DNA from: Betaproteobacteria bacterium
GTDB taxonomy: Bacteria; Bdellovibrionota_B; Oligoflexia; Silvanigrellales; Silvanigrellaceae
Assembly (NCBI GenBank): GCA_016868315.1
Contig: VGHE01000006.1
Coordinates: 124,001-188,000 of the forward strand
Length of the DNA: 64,000 nucleotides
Reading direction: 5' to 3'
Shown: positions 7,921 to 63,637 of the stretch, in pieces
Numbering within the stretch: the stretch's first letter is position 1
Layout: the number at the start of each line of letters is the position of its first letter
The notes under the pieces: generated by a model
What the model was told of the DNA's origin: nothing
Database searches by the model: none
Seen by the model: only the letters and a program-made list of their open reading frames with translations
Made by a program: the position numbers and the translations under genes

Positions 7921-9015
7921 ATGTCTACGCCACTTTTTGGTTTCCTCCAGGGAACTAAAAACATTCAGCTCGGAATTGATGTCGGTGCATCTGCCGTGAA
8001 GGTTGTTGCGCTTGAAAACACATCGAAAGGAGCACGCCTGCTCGGACTCGGATGGGAAGAAACACCCCCTGGTGCTGTCGTAGACGGAAGCTTGAATGAC
8101 ACCCGATCGATAACCCAGGTGGTCAAAGCAGCTCTTGAACAAACTAAAATTCGTTACAAAGGCTGCAACGCAACCGTTGGCCTGCGGGGAATTAACGTCG
8201 TCTTCAAACGTATATCGGTGCCATTTCAGGGCAACATGGAACTACCCAGGCAAATTATTCTTGAAGCACAACAACACGTCGATTCAGATCTAGAACAATG
8301 GCAGATCGATTACGAACCGATTGGTGCACCGAACTCCGAAGGGCAAATCTCAGTCCTTCTTGTCGCAGCTAAGAGAGCCGTGGTCGAACAATACGTTGAG
8401 CTTCTCAAACAAGTGGGGGTCAAGCCCTCTGTTCTCGACTGCGATGCTTTTGCAATTTCAAACTCATTCGAATTTGCGAGCCAGCAAGACAACCGAACAA
8501 ATCTTTGTATTGATGTTGGGCGCGACAGCACAAAAATTCATCTCACAATTAACGGTAATTCAAGCATCATCCGCAGTCTTCCTATCGGCGGATCGCATTT
8601 CACAGATTTGATTTCACGCCAACTGAATATCAGCCACACAGAGGCGGAGACAATCAAATGGAGCGTTGCAAGCCCAGAGTTTGCAGCAGAGCATCCCGAT
8701 GTCATAGCGGTATGCCAACAACACACCGAAGAGTTGTGTGATGAAATCAAGAAAACAATGGAATTCTACTCGGGCTACGAAGAGGGAACCGCAGTAAAAG
8801 CAATAGACTCGGTTGTGCTGTCTGGCGGGGGCTCCGTGGTACCAGGATTGAGTGCGGGGATAAGCACCCTGCTCAATGCAGATACTATCTACGCATCTCC
8901 CTTCAAAGCCATGACAATCAACCCAAAAATAAACGAAAATGTAACCACCAGATATTCGCATCAATTTGCAGTGGCTGCTGGTCTGGCGCTGCGTAAATCG
9001 GGGGATAAGGCATGA
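7921..9015 (+). CDS. pilM: Type IV pilus assembly protein PilM
   Basis: Cytoplasmic actin-like ATPase that binds the N-terminal tail of PilN and couples the pilus motor to the envelope alignment complex. 364 residues, the normal length. The ATP-binding phosphate motif GIDVGASAVKVV lies near residue 19, a second phosphate loop CIDVGRDSTKIH near 195, and the adenosine loop VVLSGGGSVVPG near 300. It begins the pilMNOPQ operon; its stop overlaps the pilN start (ATGA). Confidence 0.95.
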   Translation: MSTPLFGFLQGTKNIQLGIDVGASAVKVVALENTSKGARLLGLGWEETPPGAVVDGSLNDTRSITQVVKAALEQTKIRYKGCNATVGLRGINVVFKRISVPFQGNMELPRQIILEAQQHVDSDLEQWQIDYEPIGAPNSEGQISVLLVAAKRAVVEQYVELLKQVGVKPSVLDCDAFAISNSFEFASQQDNRTNLCIDVGRDSTKIHLTINGNSSIIRSLPIGGSHFTDLISRQLNISHTEAETIKWSVASPEFAAEHPDVIAVCQQHTEELCDEIKKTMEFYSGYEEGTAVKAIDSVVLSGGGSVVPGLSAGISTLLNADTIYASPFKAMTINPKINENVTTRYSHQFAVAAGLALRKSGDKA

Positions 9016-9677
9016 TCCGAATAAACCTTGCTCCCGACGTCGCTGAACAAACACACCGCAGTGTTCTTGGGCGAGATGCACTGATTACTGCCGTACTTTG
9101 CTTTGCCGTATTTCTAGCGGTTGAACATTATGCACTGAAGTTCGACGACAAAGTTATTGCAGTCGACATGAAACTCGAAGAGCAAAAAAGCATGCGCGCT
9201 CGCATGCAAAAAAACTTCGAAAAAGCCAAGCAGACACAGGATAGAGTCGAGGGAATCCGAAGCAAAGGCCGTAAGGTCTTGGCCTTGGGTGAAGGCAGAA
9301 AGATTCCTATTGTGCTCCTCGATAATCTGCAGATGCGACATCCAGAGCGCATGTGGTTCAACAAACTCACTTACTCAACCGTAACAGGTGTTGTAACCCT
9401 GACCGGATATGCGCTCGACCACTCCGTGATTGCCGACTATCTCCGCCGTCTGAAGGAAATGGAAAAAATAGACTCATCGGCAATCGGTGAACTCAGGGAG
9501 TTCGTGCCTCAGCAACTTTTAAATTCAAGCCTCGCAGTCACTGCAAGTTCTCCTGAGGCATCAAAGAATGAAATCAAAGCACTCGAAAGCGTAACTCTCA
9601 CCTCGCTTAAGAGCGAAGAAGTACAGGGTGTAACACTGCAGAAATTCGAAATCACAATCAAGATTCAGGTTGGTTAA
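9012..9677 (+). CDS. pilN: Type IV pilus assembly protein PilN
   Basis: Inner-membrane component of the PilMNOP alignment complex. 221 residues. The N-terminus IRINLAPDV matches the short cytoplasmic INLLP-type tail that docks into PilM. One transmembrane helix follows (about 19-40), then a periplasmic coiled coil and a ferredoxin-like domain. It overlaps pilM by 4 bases and is 3 bases ahead of pilO. Confidence 0.93.
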   Translation: MIRINLAPDVAEQTHRSVLGRDALITAVLCFAVFLAVEHYALKFDDKVIAVDMKLEEQKSMRARMQKNFEKAKQTQDRVEGIRSKGRKVLALGEGRKIPIVLLDNLQMRHPERMWFNKLTYSTVTGVVTLTGYALDHSVIADYLRRLKEMEKIDSSAIGELREFVPQQLLNSSLAVTASSPEASKNEIKALESVTLTSLKSEEVQGVTLQKFEITIKIQVG

Positions 9678-9680
9678 CAG

Positions 9681-10472
9681 ATGGCAACACTCTCAAGCCA
9701 ATATGAACAACTCCCACCGATAGCAAGGCTCGGCCTATCTCTGCTACTGATGGCCGTTGTGGCCTGGTACGTCTGGGATGACATGGTCATGCCAAAGCAG
9801 GAAATTCTCACAGCCAAGAATGACGAGCTCACCAAGATTGTGAACGAGCTCAGGGATTCCAACACGCTGGTTAGCCCGGTCAGCATGGAGGAGGAGCTCA
9901 ACAAGGCTAACCGTGAATATAAAAAGATGATCGAGCTGCTCCCCGACGAGCCTGCAATAGAAAAGATACTCAACGACTTTGCGAGTCTATCGCGCCTGAG
10001 TGGTGTGGAGATTCGGGAGTTTATGCCAGTAACACCTCCATCTGCAGCCGCAGCTCAGGGTGCTCCAATCACAGGTGTGTCTGCACCAACAACAGACCCT
10101 GCGCTCCTCCAGACTGTCAGCGTGGACGAAGACACCAGCTCAATCACCATTTCCGTTAAGCTGCAGGGAACATTCAGTTCAATGGTATCGTTCATGGATA
10201 TGGCGATGAGTATACCACGCGTGATCCGCATTCAGGATTTTGAAATCCTCCATGAGGATCGTGAACTCAAGCTTGTTCAGCGTCCGAAATTATCTTTCAC
10301 AGGAAAATTCACCGCGTACTTTCAACGTGGAACAAATACAAAGAGAAGCGTTGTTGCGGAAGTCAGCGACGGAAAAAAGAATTCGAACAAAGATTCAGTA
10401 CCTGCAACTTTAATTGACATTAATTCTGCAATCGACAAATCATTTTCTGCCAAGGGGAGCACAGAACCCTGA
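9681..10472 (+). CDS. pilO: Type IV pilus assembly protein PilO
   Basis: Bitopic inner-membrane partner of PilN. 263 residues, with a transmembrane helix (about 12-30), a coiled coil (about 40-95), an Ala/Pro-rich break near 115-125 and a C-terminal domain that ends with a Ser/Lys-rich tail longer than usual. Third gene of pilMNOPQ. Confidence 0.92.
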   Translation: MATLSSQYEQLPPIARLGLSLLLMAVVAWYVWDDMVMPKQEILTAKNDELTKIVNELRDSNTLVSPVSMEEELNKANREYKKMIELLPDEPAIEKILNDFASLSRLSGVEIREFMPVTPPSAAAAQGAPITGVSAPTTDPALLQTVSVDEDTSSITISVKLQGTFSSMVSFMDMAMSIPRVIRIQDFEILHEDRELKLVQRPKLSFTGKFTAYFQRGTNTKRSVVAEVSDGKKNSNKDSVPATLIDINSAIDKSFSAKGSTEP

Positions 10473-10474
10473 TT

Positions 10475-10912
10475 ATGAACAGCTCAAAAACCTGTCAGAA
10501 AATCTGTTTCCTACTTATCGCGGCAAGCGCTTTCTTGCTCAGCTCTTATACGTATCGCCCTGAGGGAAAGACTGACCCATTTGCACCACTTTCTCTTATT
10601 CGCCCAACTCTATCTGGTGCAACACGACTCCAGCAACATGACATTTCTGAATTTGAATTGGTTGGAACGCTGTTCGGAAAAGAACCAACGGCGTTGCTCA
10701 TGACGCCCGACCCGAAGCAGGGAGTGATTGCACGCGTCGGCGACAGAATTGGGAGGCATGGAGGCCGTGTTGTGTCGATCACACGTGATCGTGTCCTGAC
10801 ACGAGAACCCTCTGCCAACTCTGTGCCCGGCCAAGCTGTGCAGTTCAATGACATTGTCATACTTCTCTCAAAATACCGTCAACCAGAGGCACTCAAGGAG
10901 CTCAAGAAATGA
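10475..10912 (+). CDS. pilP: Type IV pilus assembly protein PilP
   Basis: Periplasmic linker between PilN/PilO and the secretin PilQ. 145 residues. The KTDPFAPLS segment near residue 32 and the following beta domain (ELVGTLFG, GVIARVGDRIG, VVSITRDRVLTRE) are typical. The N-terminal hydrophobic stretch lacks the usual lipobox Cys, so it may be held by an uncleaved anchor or be soluble instead of a lipoprotein. Stop and pilQ start overlap (ATGA). Confidence 0.88.
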   Translation: MNSSKTCQKICFLLIAASAFLLSSYTYRPEGKTDPFAPLSLIRPTLSGATRLQQHDISEFELVGTLFGKEPTALLMTPDPKQGVIARVGDRIGRHGGRVVSITRDRVLTREPSANSVPGQAVQFNDIVILLSKYRQPEALKELKK

Positions 10913-13026
10913 GAACGAATGTTATGAAACATCGTAAAGTTCACTCCTTGCTCCTCGGAGTCACCCCACTGCTTTCGTTACAGTTTGCCAATGCACAGTT
11001 TAACGGATTCAATGCAGCTCCTCCGGTCAACGGAGCGGCGCCACTCAATTCGACAGGTCAATCGGTCATCCCGCCTCCCCCTTCAAACACTCAGAATTTC
11101 GGGACGCAAAACACAAACAGTGCAACCGGAGCATCTGCTGTCGTTGGCGGCGCGAACAACACTGCAGCACCGGCAGCAACAGTCTCAAACACCGATACTA
11201 CAGCAACCACCTCAACAAATGCAGCTCTTTCTGAGGCCGTGAATGCAGGATTATCCAACAACCAAACAGCGGAACAGAATGATCTGATTTCGCTTGAATA
11301 CCGCAATGCACCACTGCTGGAAGTCATCCGCACACTCGCAGATGCAGCAAACCTCAACATCACACTTTCCTCTGATGTGGAGCGGGGAAGTCCAGTATCA
11401 ATTCGGTTGACAAAAGTTACCTATGAGCAAGCGCTGCGCGCAATTCTCGATACCTACAAATTCGGTGCGGTCCTCGAAAACGGCATTCTAAAAATTGATA
11501 CAATTGCCAACTTGACCGCAGCACGCGAGGAAAAACTGAAGGAGAAGGAAGCTTTTTGGAAGAGCCAACCCTCCAAGCGCCTCGTTTGGCAAGTAAATTA
11601 CGCCAAGGCTACAGATCTTTCTGAGCTTTTGAAACCGATGCTCAAGGCCTACACAGTTGACCCACGCTTTTCAATTATTGCAGACAAGCGAACCAACAAG
11701 TTGATTGTGGAAGGCATTGCAGATGCGCTGGTTGAGGCAAAGAGCATTCTAGAAAATCTAGACCGCCGTAAGCAGCAAGTTCTCATCGAGGCGCGAATTG
11801 TTGAAGCGAGTAGTGAACTTTCTAAAACGCTGAGTGTCACCTGGGGAACCCGTTTCGGCTTTGAAGGCAACCGTGGGATGGCCAATGGATTGCTTTTTCC
11901 AAATTCGATTGTAGGCAGCGTGGGCGGAGCCGGCGCATTGGGCTCCTCAGCGCCAAACCCAATGGTTGGCCGGCAGGCGTCGCAGCTGGGAACCATGCAA
12001 TTTACAGTGGGCTCAATTAACAACCTGATAAACATTGACGCTATCTTGCGCGCCTACGAAACAGAGGCACTCGCAAACGTCATTGCTTCTCCACGCGTGG
12101 TTGTTCAGGATCAGGAACGTGCCACAATCAAGGAAGACATCACGCTTTCACGGCCTGTTTTGGGCGCAGAAGGAAAACCTGAAGGGCGGAACACGATTGC
12201 AAACCTTGAACTTGTCGTTGCTCCGCAAATTACATCTGACAACACACTTGAACTCGACATTCAGGTTCAACGCCAAACACCAACCAACGCTCCGTCTGAT
12301 CCGGTTCAAGGCTCAATCAAGCGCCAAGCCAATACCAAACTTATCGTTGCCAATGGCGAAACTGCGGTTATTGGTGGACTCTATCAAACACAGAAATTTA
12401 AAGGTCAGGGGCGCATCCCTTTTCTCGGTCGCCTCCCCATCATTGGTGTTCTGTTCAGAACCAACGAAGAGCAGAGTTTCCGCTCGGAGCTCATGGTTCT
12501 TATCACCCCGCGGATCCTTCCGGGCGGCGGAGGCGGCGTGAGAACATCATCGAGAGCGGACTTGCCTATTGGAACTCCTGTGAATGGCAACGGGGGCAAT
12601 AACTACAACAACAACAATTCCAGCAACAGCCTGCTCAACAACTCGGGCGGTGGTGGCGGAGGTGCACTGAATGCCCCAGCTCCTGTCGCGCCACCTGTTA
12701 ACTCAACAAAATCAGCCAAGGGCACAAATGAATTCGGGAGTCCAACAAATTTTGGTGCCAACGGACTCGGTAATGCCGGCGGAAACAACGGCAATGGAAA
12801 TGCCCTCGGCACATCAAATGAATTTGGCAACGCCGGCGGAGCCAACAACGGAAATGGTAACGCGAACTCCGAGGGAGATGATCTTAATAACATTGACTCT
12901 GGCAACGCTCCCCAAAATGGCGGCAGCGGAGGAAATGGCAATTTCAATAATCTCGGAGCAAATAACGGCGGTGGAAACGGTGGCGGCAACGGGAATCTGA
13001 ACGACCTCAATGGAGGTGATCTGTGA
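10909..13026 (+). CDS. pilQ: Type IV pilus secretin PilQ with Asn/Gly-rich tail
   Basis: Outer-membrane pore for the type IV pilus. 705 residues. A signal peptide ends after ANA (about 29). Residues 30-125 are low complexity (Asn, Ala, Thr, Pro). An N0/STN-like domain (about 127-202) and an N1 domain (about 223-300) follow, then the secretin core, which ends with GRIPFLGRLPIIGVLF (about 500-516) and ITPRIL (about 532-537). No AMIN domain is visible where most PilQ proteins have one or more. The last 165 residues are almost entirely Gly, Asn, Ala and Ser. The next gene overlaps by 4 bases. Confidence 0.93.
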   Translation: MRTNVMKHRKVHSLLLGVTPLLSLQFANAQFNGFNAAPPVNGAAPLNSTGQSVIPPPPSNTQNFGTQNTNSATGASAVVGGANNTAAPAATVSNTDTTATTSTNAALSEAVNAGLSNNQTAEQNDLISLEYRNAPLLEVIRTLADAANLNITLSSDVERGSPVSIRLTKVTYEQALRAILDTYKFGAVLENGILKIDTIANLTAAREEKLKEKEAFWKSQPSKRLVWQVNYAKATDLSELLKPMLKAYTVDPRFSIIADKRTNKLIVEGIADALVEAKSILENLDRRKQQVLIEARIVEASSELSKTLSVTWGTRFGFEGNRGMANGLLFPNSIVGSVGGAGALGSSAPNPMVGRQASQLGTMQFTVGSINNLINIDAILRAYETEALANVIASPRVVVQDQERATIKEDITLSRPVLGAEGKPEGRNTIANLELVVAPQITSDNTLELDIQVQRQTPTNAPSDPVQGSIKRQANTKLIVANGETAVIGGLYQTQKFKGQGRIPFLGRLPIIGVLFRTNEEQSFRSELMVLITPRILPGGGGGVRTSSRADLPIGTPVNGNGGNNYNNNNSSNSLLNNSGGGGGGALNAPAPVAPPVNSTKSAKGTNEFGSPTNFGANGLGNAGGNNGNGNALGTSNEFGNAGGANNGNGNANSEGDDLNNIDSGNAPQNGGSGGNGNFNNLGANNGGGNGGGNGNLNDLNGGDL

Positions 13027-56854: not shown

Positions 56855-58114
56855 TCAAGCGCGCCCAAGCTCAACGATGGTGTAATCTTTCTTGCCTTTC
56901 CGAATGAGTAGACCACCGCACTCGTGGTCAAAATCTTTGAGTTGCACCTTGTAGGCGACGTCGGTGCACTTCTCGCCATTGAGGAGAAGCCCGTTACCCT
57001 GCACAATGCGGCGCGCATCACTCTTGCTCGGACACACACCGACCTTTGCCAAAAGCGAAATCACGTCGATACCAGCTTCGATTTCTGCGGCAGCGATAGC
57101 CACGCGCGGTGCAGCAGAAAGGTCGCCGCCACCCTCGAAAAGAGCGCGTGCAGCAGCAAGCGCCTTGTCAGCTTCTTCCTGACCATGCACCAGCTGAGTG
57201 ACCTCCCAAGCCAGACGCTCTTTGGCCTTGTTGGGATTGCTCTCTGGTGAACACAACTCGCGAATTTCAGAAAGTGGCAAAAACGTTAGCTGTCGCAGAG
57301 TCTGCTCAACATTTTCGTCGGGAATATTCCTCAAATACTGAAAGAAGTCGTAGGGCGAGGTCATCGATGGGTCGAGCCAAATGGCGTTCCCGGAGGTTTT
57401 TCCAAGCTTGCGACCCTGCGAATCAACAATCAGCGGCTGCGTAAAACAAAACGCCTGCTTATGCTCAACCCGACGAATCAGATCCACGCCCCCCAAAAGA
57501 TTAGACCATTGGTCATTACCACCCGTTTGAAGGAGGCAATTGTGGGTTCGGAAGAGCTCCAAGAAGTCATACGACTGCAACAGCTGGTAGCCCATCTCCA
57601 TGAAGGTCAAACCATGCTCGAGTCGTGATTTGTTCACATCCGCTGAGAGAAGTTTGGCAACCGTGAAGTGAACCCCGACATTGCGCGCGAAATCAAGCCA
57701 GCTCATAGGCCCAATCCAATCAATGTTGTTCACAAACAGCGGTGCATTCGGAACGTCGAATCGGAAATAGCGCTCCACGAGCTTCGTGAAGTTGGCAATG
57801 TATCCCTTAATGTCATCTTTGGTGTTCATGGGACGCATGTCGGTGCGCCCGGTGGGGTCACCAATCAGACCGGTCGCACCGCCAAAAAGCACAATAGGGC
57901 GCAGGCCGTGATCTTGGGCACGACGCAAACCCAGCAATGGCACCAAATGTCCGAGGGTAAGGCTTTTAGCCGTTGGATCGAAACCACAATACACACCCGG
58001 ATAAACACGAGGACTGCTTGCGGCCGCCGTTTGCAGCGACTGCACGAGCGCAGCGCCATCATTGGTCTGCTCAATCAGGCCGCGTTCTTGCATGTGTGTA
58101 AAAAAGTCCAACAT
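56855..58114 (-). CDS. tyrS: Tyrosyl-tRNA synthetase
   Basis: Class I synthetase that charges tRNA-Tyr. 419 residues from the ATG at 58114, next to ggggagagg; the reading frame extends 60 codons further, but that extension is not conserved-looking. CGFDPTAKSLTLGHLVPLL (about 43-61) holds the HIGH region, with Thr53 in place of the first His; QTGGNDQWSNLLGG follows, and the KMSKS equivalent is KLGKTSGNAIWLD. The C-terminal S4 domain is present. Convergent with ubiD. Confidence 0.94.
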   Translation of the reverse strand: MLDFFTHMQERGLIEQTNDGAALVQSLQTAAASSPRVYPGVYCGFDPTAKSLTLGHLVPLLGLRRAQDHGLRPIVLFGGATGLIGDPTGRTDMRPMNTKDDIKGYIANFTKLVERYFRFDVPNAPLFVNNIDWIGPMSWLDFARNVGVHFTVAKLLSADVNKSRLEHGLTFMEMGYQLLQSYDFLELFRTHNCLLQTGGNDQWSNLLGGVDLIRRVEHKQAFCFTQPLIVDSQGRKLGKTSGNAIWLDPSMTSPYDFFQYLRNIPDENVEQTLRQLTFLPLSEIRELCSPESNPNKAKERLAWEVTQLVHGQEEADKALAAARALFEGGGDLSAAPRVAIAAAEIEAGIDVISLLAKVGVCPSKSDARRIVQGNGLLLNGEKCTDVAYKVQLKDFDHECGGLLIRKGKKDYTIVELGRA

Positions 58115-58341
58115 CTTCCTCTCCCCAACACCACCTAGTTCCAACGACGTATCATTAATATCGAAGTCCATTCTTGGCAAAGCCGGCATTTTTTTCCGCA
58201 ACCTGAAGCCCAAAAAATTGAACCTGAGCCCGATACGACAAGCTTTCTTTCTGCGCCTGTCGCACTTCTGACCCCCTGCAGAAATTGAGCTCATGTGAGT
58301 CGCCTGGATAGGTCATCCTCACACCGGAGGGTTCTGAACTC

Positions 58342-58779
58342 ATGAATCCGCAGGCGCTCGAGTCAGACTACATGACCCTGTGTCAGACGCTGGAAGCGAA
58401 GGTCACCGGGCTCGTAGCTCTTTGCCCTGCGATTCAAGGATTTTGGACTCTCTGGTGCAAGGAGCATCGGAACGTCGCGCAGGGCATGGGCTCGCGTGAG
58501 CTCAGCCAGAGCCGGAGTCAGGAAGCTGATCCACGCTGGGCGGAGTTCATGAAACGGCGACAACGGATGGTTTCGGCGCTTGGACAGGGTCTGAAGTCTT
58601 CAGGCACCTCCGAGGAACTGAGGCAATCTGTGCAACAGCTTCTTGCCGAACATGATCGGTGTTTTGTGGACTTGCTTCAGAAGGAATTGGAGCGAGTCAA
58701 AGTACAAATGACAGCCGCATTTGCAGTGAAACGAACAGTCTCTGCGTATGCACAAACGGCTCAATTCCGGGGAGAGTAG
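58342..58779 (+). CDS. Small helical protein ahead of the glycosyltransferase
   Basis: 145 residues, predicted almost all helical with a Leu/Gln/Glu-rich second half. Size, helicity and the C-terminal AVKRTVSAYAQTAQF recall small flagellar chaperones such as FliT or FlgN, but I cannot assign it. It has a ggaggg site upstream and ends 2 bases before the glycosyltransferase start, so the two are translated together. Confidence 0.55.
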   Translation: MNPQALESDYMTLCQTLEAKVTGLVALCPAIQGFWTLWCKEHRNVAQGMGSRELSQSRSQEADPRWAEFMKRRQRMVSALGQGLKSSGTSEELRQSVQQLLAEHDRCFVDLLQKELERVKVQMTAAFAVKRTVSAYAQTAQFRGE

Positions 58780-58781
58780 GG

Positions 58782-60956
58782 ATGCTGAAGGTGGATAAGA
58801 AAAACCAGACGGCTCAGAAGGCAAACAGCGCTGCTGCCACTGCGGAGAAAAAGGATAACGGCCAGAAAAAAGCTGCTCCTGCACCTCGTCCCTCTAAGCT
58901 GGACACACTGAAGGTGAATCCAAATATCGACAAGCTTATCGACATCATCGAGCGCATGAAACAACATCCTGATCAGAGCCAACCAGCCAAGCAGAATGCG
59001 AGCCGAGTGTCGCAGATGGGTAAGAAGGTAGCATTCGTTGCGCCGCTCCTGCCACACCACTGCGAGCTTGAGATCTGGAACGCGGTTGTGCGTGAAACTG
59101 GCGTTTCGGGCGTCATTATTACTGCAAATCAGGAAGAGCGCTCGTTTCAAACTTTCGTTGAAACATGCAACCTGGCGAATATTCCAGTGGCGCTGACCTG
59201 CAAAGCACTCGAAACAACCCTGGAAAACAAATCCTTCCTCGGTGGTCTCGAGAACGAAATCCGCGATGCGGAGGTCGTTGTTGCCGTGGGTGAAGCATCT
59301 CTCTCAACTTATCAGGCACTCAAGGCGCGACGCTCGCTACAAAACAGACTGCTCGTCTGGCAAAACGCGCCCCGTCCTCCCGCAACTCTCGGTCTGTGGC
59401 GTGCGACCCCATTCGCTGCTCTCCCTCCGCAGATGACTCGCGAAAAAACCATCCGTCGTGAGGTTCTGAGAACCTGCGATGCAATCATTTCTCTCGACAA
59501 GGAAGGTGCATCGTGGGCTTACCTTGAGGAGGTTAATCCTCAGCGTATCCGCCGCATCAACCGCGGAGTGAACACACAAATTTTCAATCTGGAAAAGTGG
59601 GATGCGAACAAACGAGACATCCGCAAGGCTCTCGGAATCGCAGCCAACGACTTCATCTTCCTCCAGACAGGACCATTGGAAGTCGACTCCGGAGCTCTTG
59701 ATACAGTTTATGCATTCAAGAGTCTGCTGCAGAGCCACAATAAACTCGTCGGCAAGGTCAAGCTATTGTTCTGCAGCACGGGTTCCGCAAGTGCAGATGT
59801 GCGCCAAGCGATTGTTGACCTGCAGATTGAAGACCATGTCTTCTTCCTAAACCCGAGCGATTCGGGCAACAAGCTGTTGGTCGGAAACCAGCTCTCACCC
59901 TTGATTGCTGCGTGCGATGTTTTGATTCACAGCCCCGTTGCACCGAGCAACGGTAGTCCACATCGATTCCTCGACACCACCTACGACATCCTCTGTGGCA
60001 TGGCTTGTGGCGTAACGATTGTGTCAAATGGCTTTGGTTGGGTTGGCGAATTTGCAGGCCGCTTCTACAAAACATTCGCAGGCGGCAACATCCACAGCCT
60101 TTCACGAACAATGTTTGAGTCGATCGAAAAACGTGAAAAGCTTACCAACGTCAGACGTGCAGCATTCAAGGCCGTTGAGAACGAACTCAACTTCCAACAA
60201 GCTGCCGATGAATTTGGTAAAATTATTGTCAATGCACTTTCAGGACCGCAGCTGCAGGACAACAATTCAGCCGACGCAGTTTTCGACCAAATCGAAAAAA
60301 CCATTCAGGGCAAGCAGTATCTTGATGCCATCGTTCTCATAAACAAAGCCTTTAGCATCAATGAAATTACCACCACACAGCGTGCGAACCTGTTCCGCCA
60401 CATCGGCGACTGCTTCACCAAGCTCGGTGATCTGGAAAACGGCACAGCAAACTACACGCGCGCATTGGAACTTGATCCCTACTGTGCAAAATCACTGATT
60501 GGCCTTGGAACCATTGCTCTTCAGCAGCACAACTACAACGTTGCGGTTCCTCAATTCCAGAAGGCTGTAGGTCTCTCGCCCCGCGATGATATGGCTAGCC
60601 TTGGTCTGGGCCTCGCATTCGAAGGACTCGGTGAACTCGAGGAAGCACGCCGCTGGACAAGCCGCGCTTGCAATCTGAACATCGAGAACACAGTTGCGAT
60701 CTTCAACTTGGTCAAGCTCGCTTACGACACAGAAGTTTTCGCTGAGGCAGAAGAGGTCGTTTCCCGCCACGTCGGCCAGCATCCGCACGATATCAACATG
60801 ATATTCACGCTCGGAGGACTCGCCTTCCGTGGAGGAAAATTCGATGAGGCAACTAAGCTCATGGAAAACATTCTGCTGCTTGACCCAATGAACAGCCGAG
60901 CACACGGATTGATCGCTCAGATTCAAAGAAAAAACGAGACTCGTCGCCAGGCCTGA
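58782..60956 (+). CDS. GT-B glycosyltransferase fused to TPR repeats
   Basis: 724 residues from the ATG at 58782 (ggag 7 bases upstream). An Ala/Lys-rich leader (1-80), then a GT-B fold (about 81-500; KVAFVAPLLPHH, RRINRGVNTQIFNLEKW, DFIFLQTGPLEVDSGALD, CDVLIHSPVAP, CGMACGVTIVSNGFGWVGEF) like GT4 enzymes but without a clear first Glu of the EX7E motif, then TPRs (534-715; GDCFTKLGDLENGTANYTRALELDP, then LGLGLAFEGLGELEEA). No membrane helix. Such fusions act on proteins or flagellin in some bacteria; here the acceptor is unknown. Confidence 0.8.
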   Translation: MLKVDKKNQTAQKANSAAATAEKKDNGQKKAAPAPRPSKLDTLKVNPNIDKLIDIIERMKQHPDQSQPAKQNASRVSQMGKKVAFVAPLLPHHCELEIWNAVVRETGVSGVIITANQEERSFQTFVETCNLANIPVALTCKALETTLENKSFLGGLENEIRDAEVVVAVGEASLSTYQALKARRSLQNRLLVWQNAPRPPATLGLWRATPFAALPPQMTREKTIRREVLRTCDAIISLDKEGASWAYLEEVNPQRIRRINRGVNTQIFNLEKWDANKRDIRKALGIAANDFIFLQTGPLEVDSGALDTVYAFKSLLQSHNKLVGKVKLLFCSTGSASADVRQAIVDLQIEDHVFFLNPSDSGNKLLVGNQLSPLIAACDVLIHSPVAPSNGSPHRFLDTTYDILCGMACGVTIVSNGFGWVGEFAGRFYKTFAGGNIHSLSRTMFESIEKREKLTNVRRAAFKAVENELNFQQAADEFGKIIVNALSGPQLQDNNSADAVFDQIEKTIQGKQYLDAIVLINKAFSINEITTTQRANLFRHIGDCFTKLGDLENGTANYTRALELDPYCAKSLIGLGTIALQQHNYNVAVPQFQKAVGLSPRDDMASLGLGLAFEGLGELEEARRWTSRACNLNIENTVAIFNLVKLAYDTEVFAEAEEVVSRHVGQHPHDINMIFTLGGLAFRGGKFDEATKLMENILLLDPMNSRAHGLIAQIQRKNETRRQA

Positions 60957-60995
60957 GTGCTGGCGTTCAGGCGGAAAAAAGGGAGGGGAGCAAAT

Positions 60996-61697
60996 ATGGC
61001 TGATGTGCGCATCAATGGACGACGTCTGGTTCTCCTGCAGCAGGAAAGAAACATCCAGTCGTTGGTCGACAAGCTCGACAACATGGCAACTAGAAGTAAC
61101 AGCTGCCTCACGGCGCTTCACGTGAACGGCAACGAAATCGACCTCGACGACACCGCAACTATTGCTGGCTCTGAGCTCGGCGAAGCTGATGTTGTCGATG
61201 CTCGCATTGAAAACACGGCTCAACTGGCATTTGAAAGCCTCCAAGTCGCACAGGAGATGGCTGAGCTTTTGGTGTTCGATATTAAAGTCACCACATTGAA
61301 GCTTTGGGACTCAAATACCTTTGCTGAAAAAGAGATGGACGCGCTGCTCAAGGACTGCCACACATTCCTCACACTTGGTGCTCATCCTCTCGACCTGCTG
61401 CAACGTTCACCTCTTGAGCTCAGCGCAACAGCACAAGAATGTTTGCGTGAGCTCGACAAAATTGCGCAGAACATTGAGGACGCAACCTTGCTGGCAGTTC
61501 ACATGCAACTCAAAGACACCTGCCATGTGCTGGTCGGGCGCGTTATGCCGTGCATCGAGCGCTGGCTGGGTCTCACAGCTGCATTTGCCAAAGAGCTGGA
61601 AATCGACCGGCTTGAACGCCCGAACCTCGGAGAAGCTTCCGAAGTCGTGCCCTTTAGGCCTATTCCAGGCCAAGTACCCGTTATCGTAACGCGCTGA
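60996..61697 (+). CDS. Unknown protein, possible beta-grasp plus helical bundle
   Basis: 233 residues from the ATG at 60996 with ggagggg upstream. Residues 3-70 (RINGRRLVLLQQERNIQSLV, TALHVNGNEID, ADVVDARIEN) alternate in a way that recalls ThiS-like beta-grasp domains; the rest is predicted helical. No catalytic motif. It follows the glycosyltransferase by 39 bases and is closed by a terminator, so it ends the cassette. No family recognised. Confidence 0.6.
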   Translation: MADVRINGRRLVLLQQERNIQSLVDKLDNMATRSNSCLTALHVNGNEIDLDDTATIAGSELGEADVVDARIENTAQLAFESLQVAQEMAELLVFDIKVTTLKLWDSNTFAEKEMDALLKDCHTFLTLGAHPLDLLQRSPLELSATAQECLRELDKIAQNIEDATLLAVHMQLKDTCHVLVGRVMPCIERWLGLTAAFAKELEIDRLERPNLGEASEVVPFRPIPGQVPVIVTR

Positions 61698-61734
61698 TTT
61701 AGCAATAGTAAATTGAGCGCACAGGATGCAAGCG

Positions 61735-61764
61735 GGCTTCCTTGACGGGGAGCCTCTTTTTTTT
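61735..61764 (+). terminator. Rho-independent terminator of the glycosyltransferase cassette
   Basis: GGCTTCC (61735-61741) pairs with GGGAGCC (61748-61754) with one T-G pair and a 6-base loop, then a run of eight T (61757-61764). Confidence 0.85.
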
Positions 61765-61814: not shown

Positions 61815-62936
61815 ATGCGTGTTGCTCTAAATTATATAAGGTTGCGCAGCCTGGCCAGCGCAGCAGCTGTTTGGACAGTTGCAGGCTCGAGCCATGGAGT
61901 CGCGGCAGAACTGCAGCGTGAATACGTGTCCGCTCCTCTGCTCGGATCCGGCAACGCGGGAACGACCGATGTCTACGGACTGGATTCATTGTTCTATAAC
62001 CCTGCCAACTTGGCGCGCACTCCGAAAGTTGTCGGTGATGTGGTTCTTGTCAGTCCTCACATCGAGGCGAGCCAGAATGGCTTGAGCCTTTATAAAGACA
62101 TCCAGTCCAATAAAAACATGCTCGACGTTGTGGGTGGTGCGGTTGGACGCCCCGTTTCACTGGCGTTGCAAAACGCAACAGGTGCCAGCTTCCGACGCAC
62201 GGCGTTTGCGCTCTTCCAACGTGCTGATCTCGACATTGCGGTGAAGAATAATCCTATTTCGGGAATACCTGTTGCGACAGCGGCATCGGCAGTACGCGCA
62301 GGTGTCGCCTTCGGCCTCGGTCGCAGCTTTTCAGGGAATGCACTCCATTTCGGGGTTACGGGACTCATCGTTCAAAAGGCAGAGGCACAGCTCGAGGTGT
62401 CAGCACTCGATGCACAAACGAAACTCGGAAAATCGGGTGGCAAAAGTGTTTTGGATGATGCGGTAAAACGCGGCGTTGGTGTTGGTGCACATGCGAGTTT
62501 AATGCTCACCCCTGGTGGTGCATCTTCGCCTGAGTTTGTGCTCGTCGCGCGAAACCTGGGGTTAAGTTATGGCGTCGGCGGCAAACCCTCGAGTGAGCAA
62601 CCCAGTGCTGAAATCCAGACCATAGATTTCGGATTTTCACTCCAACCAGGTACAAAAAAAAGCCGCTCGAGAATCTCACTCGACCTCGACGACGTACTCA
62701 ACAAATCAAAGCAGAATATCTACAAAAGACTACACATGGGCGCGGAAGTTACATTCTCCGAGATTCTTGGTGTCCTTGGTGGATTGAATCAAGGTTATTC
62801 GACCTACGGCATCTTCATCAACAGCAAAATTATTCGTATCGACGCAGGTCTCTTTGCTGAGGAGATGGGAAAATATCCAGGTGATAGCAAAAACCGAAGT
62901 TACTACGGACGCGTCAGCGTGGGGTGGGCGAAATGA
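61815..62936 (+). CDS. Probable outer-membrane beta-barrel protein
   Basis: 373 residues. A signal peptide ends near GVAAE (about 31). GSGNAGTTDVYGLDSLFYNPANLAR near the mature start has the GxGxAG and YNPANLA pattern of PorV/TraF/FadL-like barrels, and strands alternate to the end (YYGRVSVGWAK). The stop overlaps the next gene (ATGA). Function unknown; it may pair with the TPR lipoprotein. Confidence 0.7.
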   Translation: MRVALNYIRLRSLASAAAVWTVAGSSHGVAAELQREYVSAPLLGSGNAGTTDVYGLDSLFYNPANLARTPKVVGDVVLVSPHIEASQNGLSLYKDIQSNKNMLDVVGGAVGRPVSLALQNATGASFRRTAFALFQRADLDIAVKNNPISGIPVATAASAVRAGVAFGLGRSFSGNALHFGVTGLIVQKAEAQLEVSALDAQTKLGKSGGKSVLDDAVKRGVGVGAHASLMLTPGGASSPEFVLVARNLGLSYGVGGKPSSEQPSAEIQTIDFGFSLQPGTKKSRSRISLDLDDVLNKSKQNIYKRLHMGAEVTFSEILGVLGGLNQGYSTYGIFINSKIIRIDAGLFAEEMGKYPGDSKNRSYYGRVSVGWAK

Positions 62937-63637
62937 GAATGCTAACGATCAGCATTGCGGCCTGCATGTTTCTGAGTTCAGCACAATTTATTGTTGCATG
63001 CGGGAGCGGAAACGTCTTCGAAAAGGCTGTTCAGCGCAGCGAGGCCGAAAAAGCACAAGCAGCGCTTGAATCCGGTGACGTCGATTCGGCAATTTCCACT
63101 CTGGAAGAATATCTCAAGAACAACCCAAACGATTCCGCTGCGCGTTCAATGCTGGCCAATGCATATCTTAAGAAGTCTGGTGTTGACCTGCTTAAGATTG
63201 GCAGCTCGGTATCAAGTGGCACAGAGGGCAAATCGGATTGGTCGACTGTCAGTGGCGTGCTCCCCAGCGGCACAGCTGCCAATGTGGACAATATGAAGGC
63301 CGCAGTTGATGCTCTGAAAAGCATTCCTCCAGCGCAACGAACCGACGAACAAAATTACCAACTTGCAATTGCGCAAACAACACTTGCAATAACGGTTGCA
63401 AAGAAGGCCTCTGGCGACGAAAGTGGCCAGCTCACCGATGAGAAAGTCGATCAGATGAGTGACAGCGACGCAATGACGATCTACAACGCTCTTCAGGGAA
63501 GCAAAGAGGCTTCAGGAGCGATGCAGACTCCGAATGATGGGCTGAGCAAAGTCGGTTCTTTTGCCGACAAGGTCGAACAGCAACCGGGCAGCACACCTGA
63601 AGAACGCTTGCGAAACTTTTTGAAGTCACAAAACTGA
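62933..63637 (+). CDS. TPR lipoprotein of unknown function
   Basis: 234 residues from the ATG at 62933, overlapping the barrel gene by 4 bases with ggggtggg upstream. The signal ends FIVAC, a lipobox-like site. A TPR-like pair (AQAALESGDVDSAISTLEEYL, NDSAARSMLANAYLKKSG) is followed by a longer, less regular helical region. It is probably an outer-membrane lipoprotein that works with the barrel; that is inference from the overlap. Confidence 0.7.
   Translation: MRMLTISIAACMFLSSAQFIVACGSGNVFEKAVQRSEAEKAQAALESGDVDSAISTLEEYLKNNPNDSAARSMLANAYLKKSGVDLLKIGSSVSSGTEGKSDWSTVSGVLPSGTAANVDNMKAAVDALKSIPPAQRTDEQNYQLAIAQTTLAITVAKKASGDESGQLTDEKVDQMSDSDAMTIYNALQGSKEASGAMQTPNDGLSKVGSFADKVEQQPGSTPEERLRNFLKSQN

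Follow-up and report, generated by a model that had tools for sequence, protein, structure and literature searches.

A gene trio around a divergent GT-B–TPR protein tracks flagellin in the Silvanigrellaceae and their relatives and is likely to serve the flagellum

What does a glycosyltransferase-like protein fused to tetratricopeptide repeats (TPRs) do when it is encoded between two small genes? The question is raised by positions 58342–61764 of a 64,000-nucleotide stretch (the window) of contig VGHE01000006.1, from an assembly placed in the Silvanigrellaceae (GCA_016868315.1). Three genes lie here on the + strand. The product of gene A (58342–58779; 145 amino acids) appears to be a small, all-helical, FliT-like putative chaperone. 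Gene B (58782–60956; 724 amino acids) encodes a divergent GT4-like protein of the GT-B type with C-terminal TPRs, a putative flagellin glycosyltransferase. The protein of gene C (60996–61697; 233 amino acids) is modeled with a beta-grasp-like N-terminal part and a four-helix bundle. A first-pass annotation had suggested a protein-glycosylation system, possibly for flagella. Our analysis indicates that the cassette most likely modifies or escorts flagellar proteins. What was observed directly is the order of the genes, their conservation, the domains they encode, and their loss along with flagellin.

The occurrence of the cassette was compared with that of flagellin (PF00669) in 56 genomes, including that of the window (3.2 Mb, 94.8 % complete; cassette on contig C6; eight flagellin matches). 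B was counted at scores of at least 180 bits and C by profile search. Flagellin is present in 48 genomes and absent from eight (G015, G019, G026, G027, G032, G036, G038, and G044). B was found in 43 and C in 45 of the flagellin-bearing genomes, and neither in any of the eight that lack flagellin. Fisher's test gives 9e-7 for B and 1e-7 for C, with the genomes related and not independent. B was missed in five flagellin-bearing genomes (G014, G017, G024, G046, and G055), of which G055 is not a true miss, as its B is broken across two contigs, with C next to one of the parts. C was missed in G046 and in two fragmented assemblies, G005 (83 % complete, 1060 contigs) and G013 (72 % complete, 300 contigs). 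Over the 58 genomes of the phylum searched by profile, C occurs in 46; the two beyond the 56 are G056 (C present) and G057 (C absent), and the flagellin search covered the 56 only. On a GspL tree of 36 genomes the flagellin state changes four times, with at least three changes forced by well supported branches. C follows the flagellin state in all three independent pairs on starred branches.

The three genes travel together. Of forty stretches taken from across the class, 37 contain B at full length. At all 37 loci the gene right after B on the same strand is C, with a gap of −35 to 97 bases. By script, a small open reading frame (ORF) ends just upstream of B in 36 of them; at the remaining locus, that of the window, the longest frame taken for B had absorbed A, whose presence was confirmed by hand. 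At one locus (L102, genome G003) the longest small ORF picked before B is probably not A, and a match to A is present there. This conserved togetherness supports the single operon of the first-pass annotation and contradicts its own counter-case, that the genes would be found apart.

The neighborhoods themselves point in two directions. In most of the more distant relatives the genes ahead of the trio were read as gspH-I-J-K-L-M-N, and in nearly all distant loci gspN is followed directly by the small gene, B, and C. (GspL and GspM were identified by Pfam, GspN by a weak AsmA/DUF748 match and its position, and H to K by sequence and order.) In the genome of the window, gspL, gspM, and gspN lie about 3 kb from the cassette in convergent orientation (L113). 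The cassette could thus serve the type II secretion system (T2SS), for example by glycosylating one of its parts or substrates. However, all eight flagellin-less genomes keep gspL without B and C: seven have GspL at full length, and in G038 it is divided between two contigs. The gsp loci of these genomes carry no B or C after gspN; for G019, G036, and G038, whose contigs stop inside gspN or shortly past it, the absence rests on genome-wide searches. The cassette does not occur with the T2SS regardless of flagella, and because the gsp genes survive in all eight genomes, it follows the flagellum and not the gsp system. The genus g5 separates the two systems in another way. Here a flagellin gene (Pfam E 4e-40) and thyX lie divergently upstream of the cassette in place of the gsp genes, and the gspL matches are elsewhere in the genome (in G007, for example, on C2 as against C6). 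The flagellin gene is about 1.1 kb from A in seven of the eight g5 genomes (G006–G012); in the eighth, G013, the contig is under 5 kb. A role in type II secretion is disfavored, and we regard it as very improbable. PF03934 was also tried as a T2SS marker and was dropped for the GspL alignment, as its matches were short (about 49 of 63 positions) and in other frames.

A flagellar function of the cassette is, by contrast with a T2SS role, highly likely. The first-pass annotation had offered flagella as a possibility and had proposed a search for flagellin near the cassette of relatives; co-loss with flagellin while the T2SS stays, and the flagellin neighbor in g5, bear it out well.

Is B a glycosyltransferase? 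Its GT-B domain spans approximately residues 80–490 and its TPRs approximately residues 500–720. The match of the window protein to PF00534 (Glycos_transf_1) is weak (15.0 bits, under the gathering cut-off of 26.4), and the TPRs are strong (PF07719, E 7e-15). The fusion reported by the first-pass annotation is therefore present, with these unequal scores. A profile of the glycosyltransferase (GT) part alone, run against the PDB at E<0.001, retrieved only BshA (2jjm and 3mbo) and Alr3699 (4xso), at about 1e-7. We take these to be GT4 enzymes of GT-B fold, and the matches indicate a remote sequence kinship of B to such enzymes. Among named relatives, the closest comes from an assembly of uncultured Silvanigrella, with 89 % identity over residues 1–724 (L143). 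A profile search of genome contigs with the B alignment gave 57 loci, of which 33 cover both GT and TPR parts (L143–L175) and 24 are weak and match the TPR part only or mainly (L176–L199). Because the patterns for the contig search were derived from the TPR part, it may have passed over relatives elsewhere that have a GT alone. A paralogue, B2, with the same combination of GT and TPRs (about 590 amino acids), occurs in relatives within the class (L200–L203, L205–L216, and L219) and is 20–26 % identical to B (30 % for one fragment). It mostly follows an S41 peptidase gene, with pnp, rpsO, and flagellin a few kb beyond in 7 of 17 loci.

The nearest NCBIfam profiles are exopolysaccharide-type GT4 families; TIGR03088 matches all 12 members searched (best E 4e-13). 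On this basis B could be a conventional transferase for surface polysaccharides (lipid glycans), its TPRs being incidental. The window protein scores far under all listed NCBIfam cut-offs (28.6 bits against 409), however, and does not fall inside one of these families; membership of a well-known lipid-glycan family was a counter-case of the first-pass annotation. There is also no polysaccharide gene among the ten neighbors scanned by Pfam, and the cassette co-occurs with flagellin. We consider this explanation improbable.

Several observations weigh against a flagellar glycosyltransferase. Across most of the class the cassette comes after gsp genes and has no flagellar genes next to it. The co-losses are few (three to four events), and a sign test on so many cannot reach 0.05. 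Three flagellated genomes (G014, G024, and G046) have no clear B, and one of them, G024, keeps an A-like ORF and C. Finally, the donor-site residues are changed. We take the Arg of the 'GR' motif, the Lys of the 'KG' motif, and the two Glu of EX7E to mark the GT4 donor site. Across 29 aligned B proteins the 'GR' position holds Pro, Gln, Ser, or Asn and never Arg (0/29), Lys stands at the 'KG' position in one, and the second EX7E Glu in none. The window protein has Pro 298, Ser 303, Leu 397, and Cys 405 at the donor and EX7E positions and does not carry the GT4 motif. The missing first EX7E Glu noted by the first-pass annotation holds for this protein, where both EX7E positions are non-Glu; among the 29 aligned proteins, 19 have Glu or Asp at the first. 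In B2, nine of 16 rows have the second EX7E Glu (one row, L208_13074, is not B2 and was kept in the counts).

This loss of donor-site residues in all or nearly all of the 29 members could mean that B is a pseudo-glycosyltransferase, and that A, B, and C form a chaperone and export scaffold for flagellin (or for FliD or hook-associated proteins) that transfers no sugar. The FliT-like character of A would fit, as would G024, which bears flagellins and keeps the A-like ORF and C without B. However, nine positions are invariant in all 29 proteins (P91, Q178, K181, R225, E227, D233, E249, G297, and G334). Five of them are charged (K181, R225, E227, D233, and E249) and look like a preserved, altered active site. 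In addition, one genome (G017) retains the GT domain without the TPRs. The residues are compatible with an altered donor site as well as with an inactive enzyme, and we favor the former because the charged residues are kept; a scaffold without catalysis is rather unlikely, less so than the two explanations above. As to the protein glycosylation proposed by the first-pass annotation, the GT domain is real, the classical donor residues are replaced, and sugar transfer by B is predicted from sequence.

The small gene before B falls mostly into two clusters, c13 in the family of the window and c8 in other families of the class. The model of A has four helices, the last one long, with a mean predicted local distance difference test score (pLDDT) of 86.0, in agreement with the small helical protein annotated before. 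The window protein scores 14.7 bits against Pfam FliT (PF05400), under the gathering cut-off of 29.5. FliT is nevertheless the commonest family match both for homologues of A (5/9, best E 0.0012) and for its positional counterpart (9/22, best E 1.1e-4), all of these matches being weak. Structure searches with A gave no clear PDB match (Foldseek best E 2.4, VIA best Z 6.4), and a PDB sequence search with the alignment of the counterpart gave nothing below E 0.017. Homology of A (c13) to the counterpart in Oligoflexales (c8) was not demonstrated by hhalign (probability 3.9 %, E 0.011), and the two are for this reason equated by position and by their shared FliT matches. A looks like a distant FliT.

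C was modeled with a mean pLDDT of 85.3 and a predicted template modeling score of 0.74. Residues 1–73 of the model contain strands and helices in a beta-grasp-like order, and residues 74–205 form four long helices. The model thus supports the earlier description of C as beta-grasp and helical, in the form of a mixed alpha/beta N-terminal part followed by four helices; the fold searches matched the helical part only, and 'beta-grasp' is based on the order of strands and helices. Foldseek returned only generic four-helix bundles (best E 0.016). The best VIA match (Z 14.7, root-mean-square deviation 2.9, 128 aligned residues within 71–204) is within about 1 of many unrelated rows. No family recurs convincingly for C in Pfam or NCBIfam, and a PDB sequence search with its alignment gave nothing below E 0.86. 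The 'new pair of helper proteins' of the first-pass annotation is thus borne out for C, for which neither Pfam nor NCBIfam has a named relative, and less so for A with its likeness to FliT. A TPR protein of 414–452 amino acids is encoded after C in some relatives (L074, 10598–11929; also L075, L093, L094, L096, and L110). A 397-residue TPR protein beside FliD-FliS in the genome of the window (L111, 4128–5321) matches it weakly (best E 8e-10, 21 % identity over 276 residues), which the TPRs alone may explain.

The exceptions are natural variants of the cassette. In G017 a TPR-less B of 404 residues ends after the GT domain and lies between a small ORF, which resembles c8 by eye, and a C with 45 % identity to a known C (L217, 617–3019). 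In G024, gspN, the A-like ORF (26 %, E 5e-9), C (41 %), and a lytic transglycosylase gene stand in a row without B (L232, 5558–6668). G014 has C without B in an assembly that is 74 % complete. The flagellin-less G015 retains a relic of 94 amino acids beside gspN that is like the c8 small protein (26 %, E 1e-6; L224, 8002–8286). A and C can therefore persist without B, and B without its TPRs. A single lineage thus holds a GT with TPRs and two helpers, a GT without TPRs but with helpers (G017), and helpers without the GT (G024). Because these variants exist side by side, the division of labor among the three proteins is directly testable.

We propose that the three proteins work together in the cytoplasm as a flagellar module. 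The C-terminal TPRs of B would bind flagellin soon after its synthesis (or another protein of filament type), and the GT-B domain would add a sugar that is probably not a nonulosonic acid. The FliT-like four-helix A, and C with its beta-grasp-like part and four-helix bundle, would help by binding the acceptor, either holding it for B or handing it on to the export apparatus. That flagellin is the acceptor, that B transfers the sugar, and that A and C assist are the parts we infer; taken together, such a flagellin glycosylation module is the account we favor, with some reserve. A bolder version is tentative at best: flagellin modification might be lineage-wide with a rebuilt GT-B donor site, and C and the FliT-like A might replace TPR acceptor binding and so couple sugar addition to export. 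If this were true, C, near-universal in flagellated members, would be an unrecognized core flagellar protein of the lineage. C is in any case a flagellum-linked family, defined by co-loss with flagellin and with no named match in Pfam or NCBIfam.

The layout of the locus is compact. A and B are separated by 2 bases and B and C by 39 bases, and a purine-rich stretch precedes each of the three starts. An intrinsic terminator follows on the + strand (61734–61764), with a stem-loop at 61734–61755 (9-bp stem, 4-base loop) and a T run. A scan found nine terminator-like sites against 6.0 expected in shuffles, so the weight of the terminator comes from its position and T run. The three ORFs and the terminator are where the first-pass annotation had placed them. 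Upstream of A, a stretch on the + strand (58258–58283) that may be a promoter or leader element is kept in all three genus members compared (G000, G001, and G002; MAFFT alignment of about 250 bases upstream of A). It is conserved although the preceding gene differs among the members. In the window this gene is an ORF on the opposite strand (56855–58294), read as tyrosyl-tRNA synthetase (tyrS). A sigma-28-like match at 58211 was dropped, as it is not conserved in G001 and G002. Past the terminator, 61815–63637 holds two ORFs, the second for a TPR protein, which are beside the cassette in four fetched loci (clusters c23 and c24). Elsewhere in the window, the ORFs at 7921–13026 resemble, judging by their sequences, a pilM-N-O-P-Q cluster for type IV pili in order and size; the GspL profile also matches the first of them (G000:C6:132188–132937).

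How does the cassette compare with known systems? FlmG of Caulobacter crescentus is described (PMC7591256) as one cytoplasmic protein in which a TPR domain that binds flagellin is joined to a GT-B-like domain; it modifies all six flagellins of that organism with pseudaminic acid, made with NeuB. B is alike in joining TPRs and a GT-B-like domain in one protein, and in both cases there are several flagellins (six there, eight matches here). By that published description, however, FlmG has the TPR domain N-terminal and the GT C-terminal; the order in B is reversed, and B does not have the FlmG-type layout. The donor also differs. NeuB (PF03102) has no match in the genome of the window and is absent from 39 and present in 17 of the 56 genomes, which makes a nonulosonic acid unlikely as the general donor, and we rejected it in that role.

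Maf enzymes provide the second comparison. According to PMC13317340 (2026), Maf-1 uses C-terminal TPRs for acceptor choice, Maf-2 needs the co-encoded factor GlfM, and other TPR-bearing transferases are predicted to be flagellin glycosyltransferases. The likeness lies in C-terminal TPRs that select flagellin, or in a co-encoded helper needed in their place; here, G017 has a TPR-less B with a small ORF and C on either side. Cytoplasmic flagellin glycosyltransferases differ in whether the acceptor is chosen by their own TPRs or by a helper. Maf enzymes transfer nonulosonic acids, whereas no Maf is among the 20 Pfam families listed for the window B and its genome has no NeuB match; on both counts B differs from this group. 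For FliT (PF05400), the likeness is that A and its counterpart match this family above any other; the differences are the score of A below the gathering threshold and the fold search without a clear match.

Published work reports Fluviispira as a motile genus; for F. vulneris the statements are mixed (PMC10645651). Spirobacillus is described as having the complete complement of flagellar structural genes (PMC12321486). The literature searches turned up no paper on this cassette, nor any on the glycosylation of flagellin in the Silvanigrellales or Oligoflexales. To judge by its anatomy, the cassette shares the plan of FlmG and Maf but is neither, since its domains are arranged differently and the donor pathway and helpers are not the same. 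Systems of this kind are known; the build of this one and the family of C are new as far as the literature searches tell.

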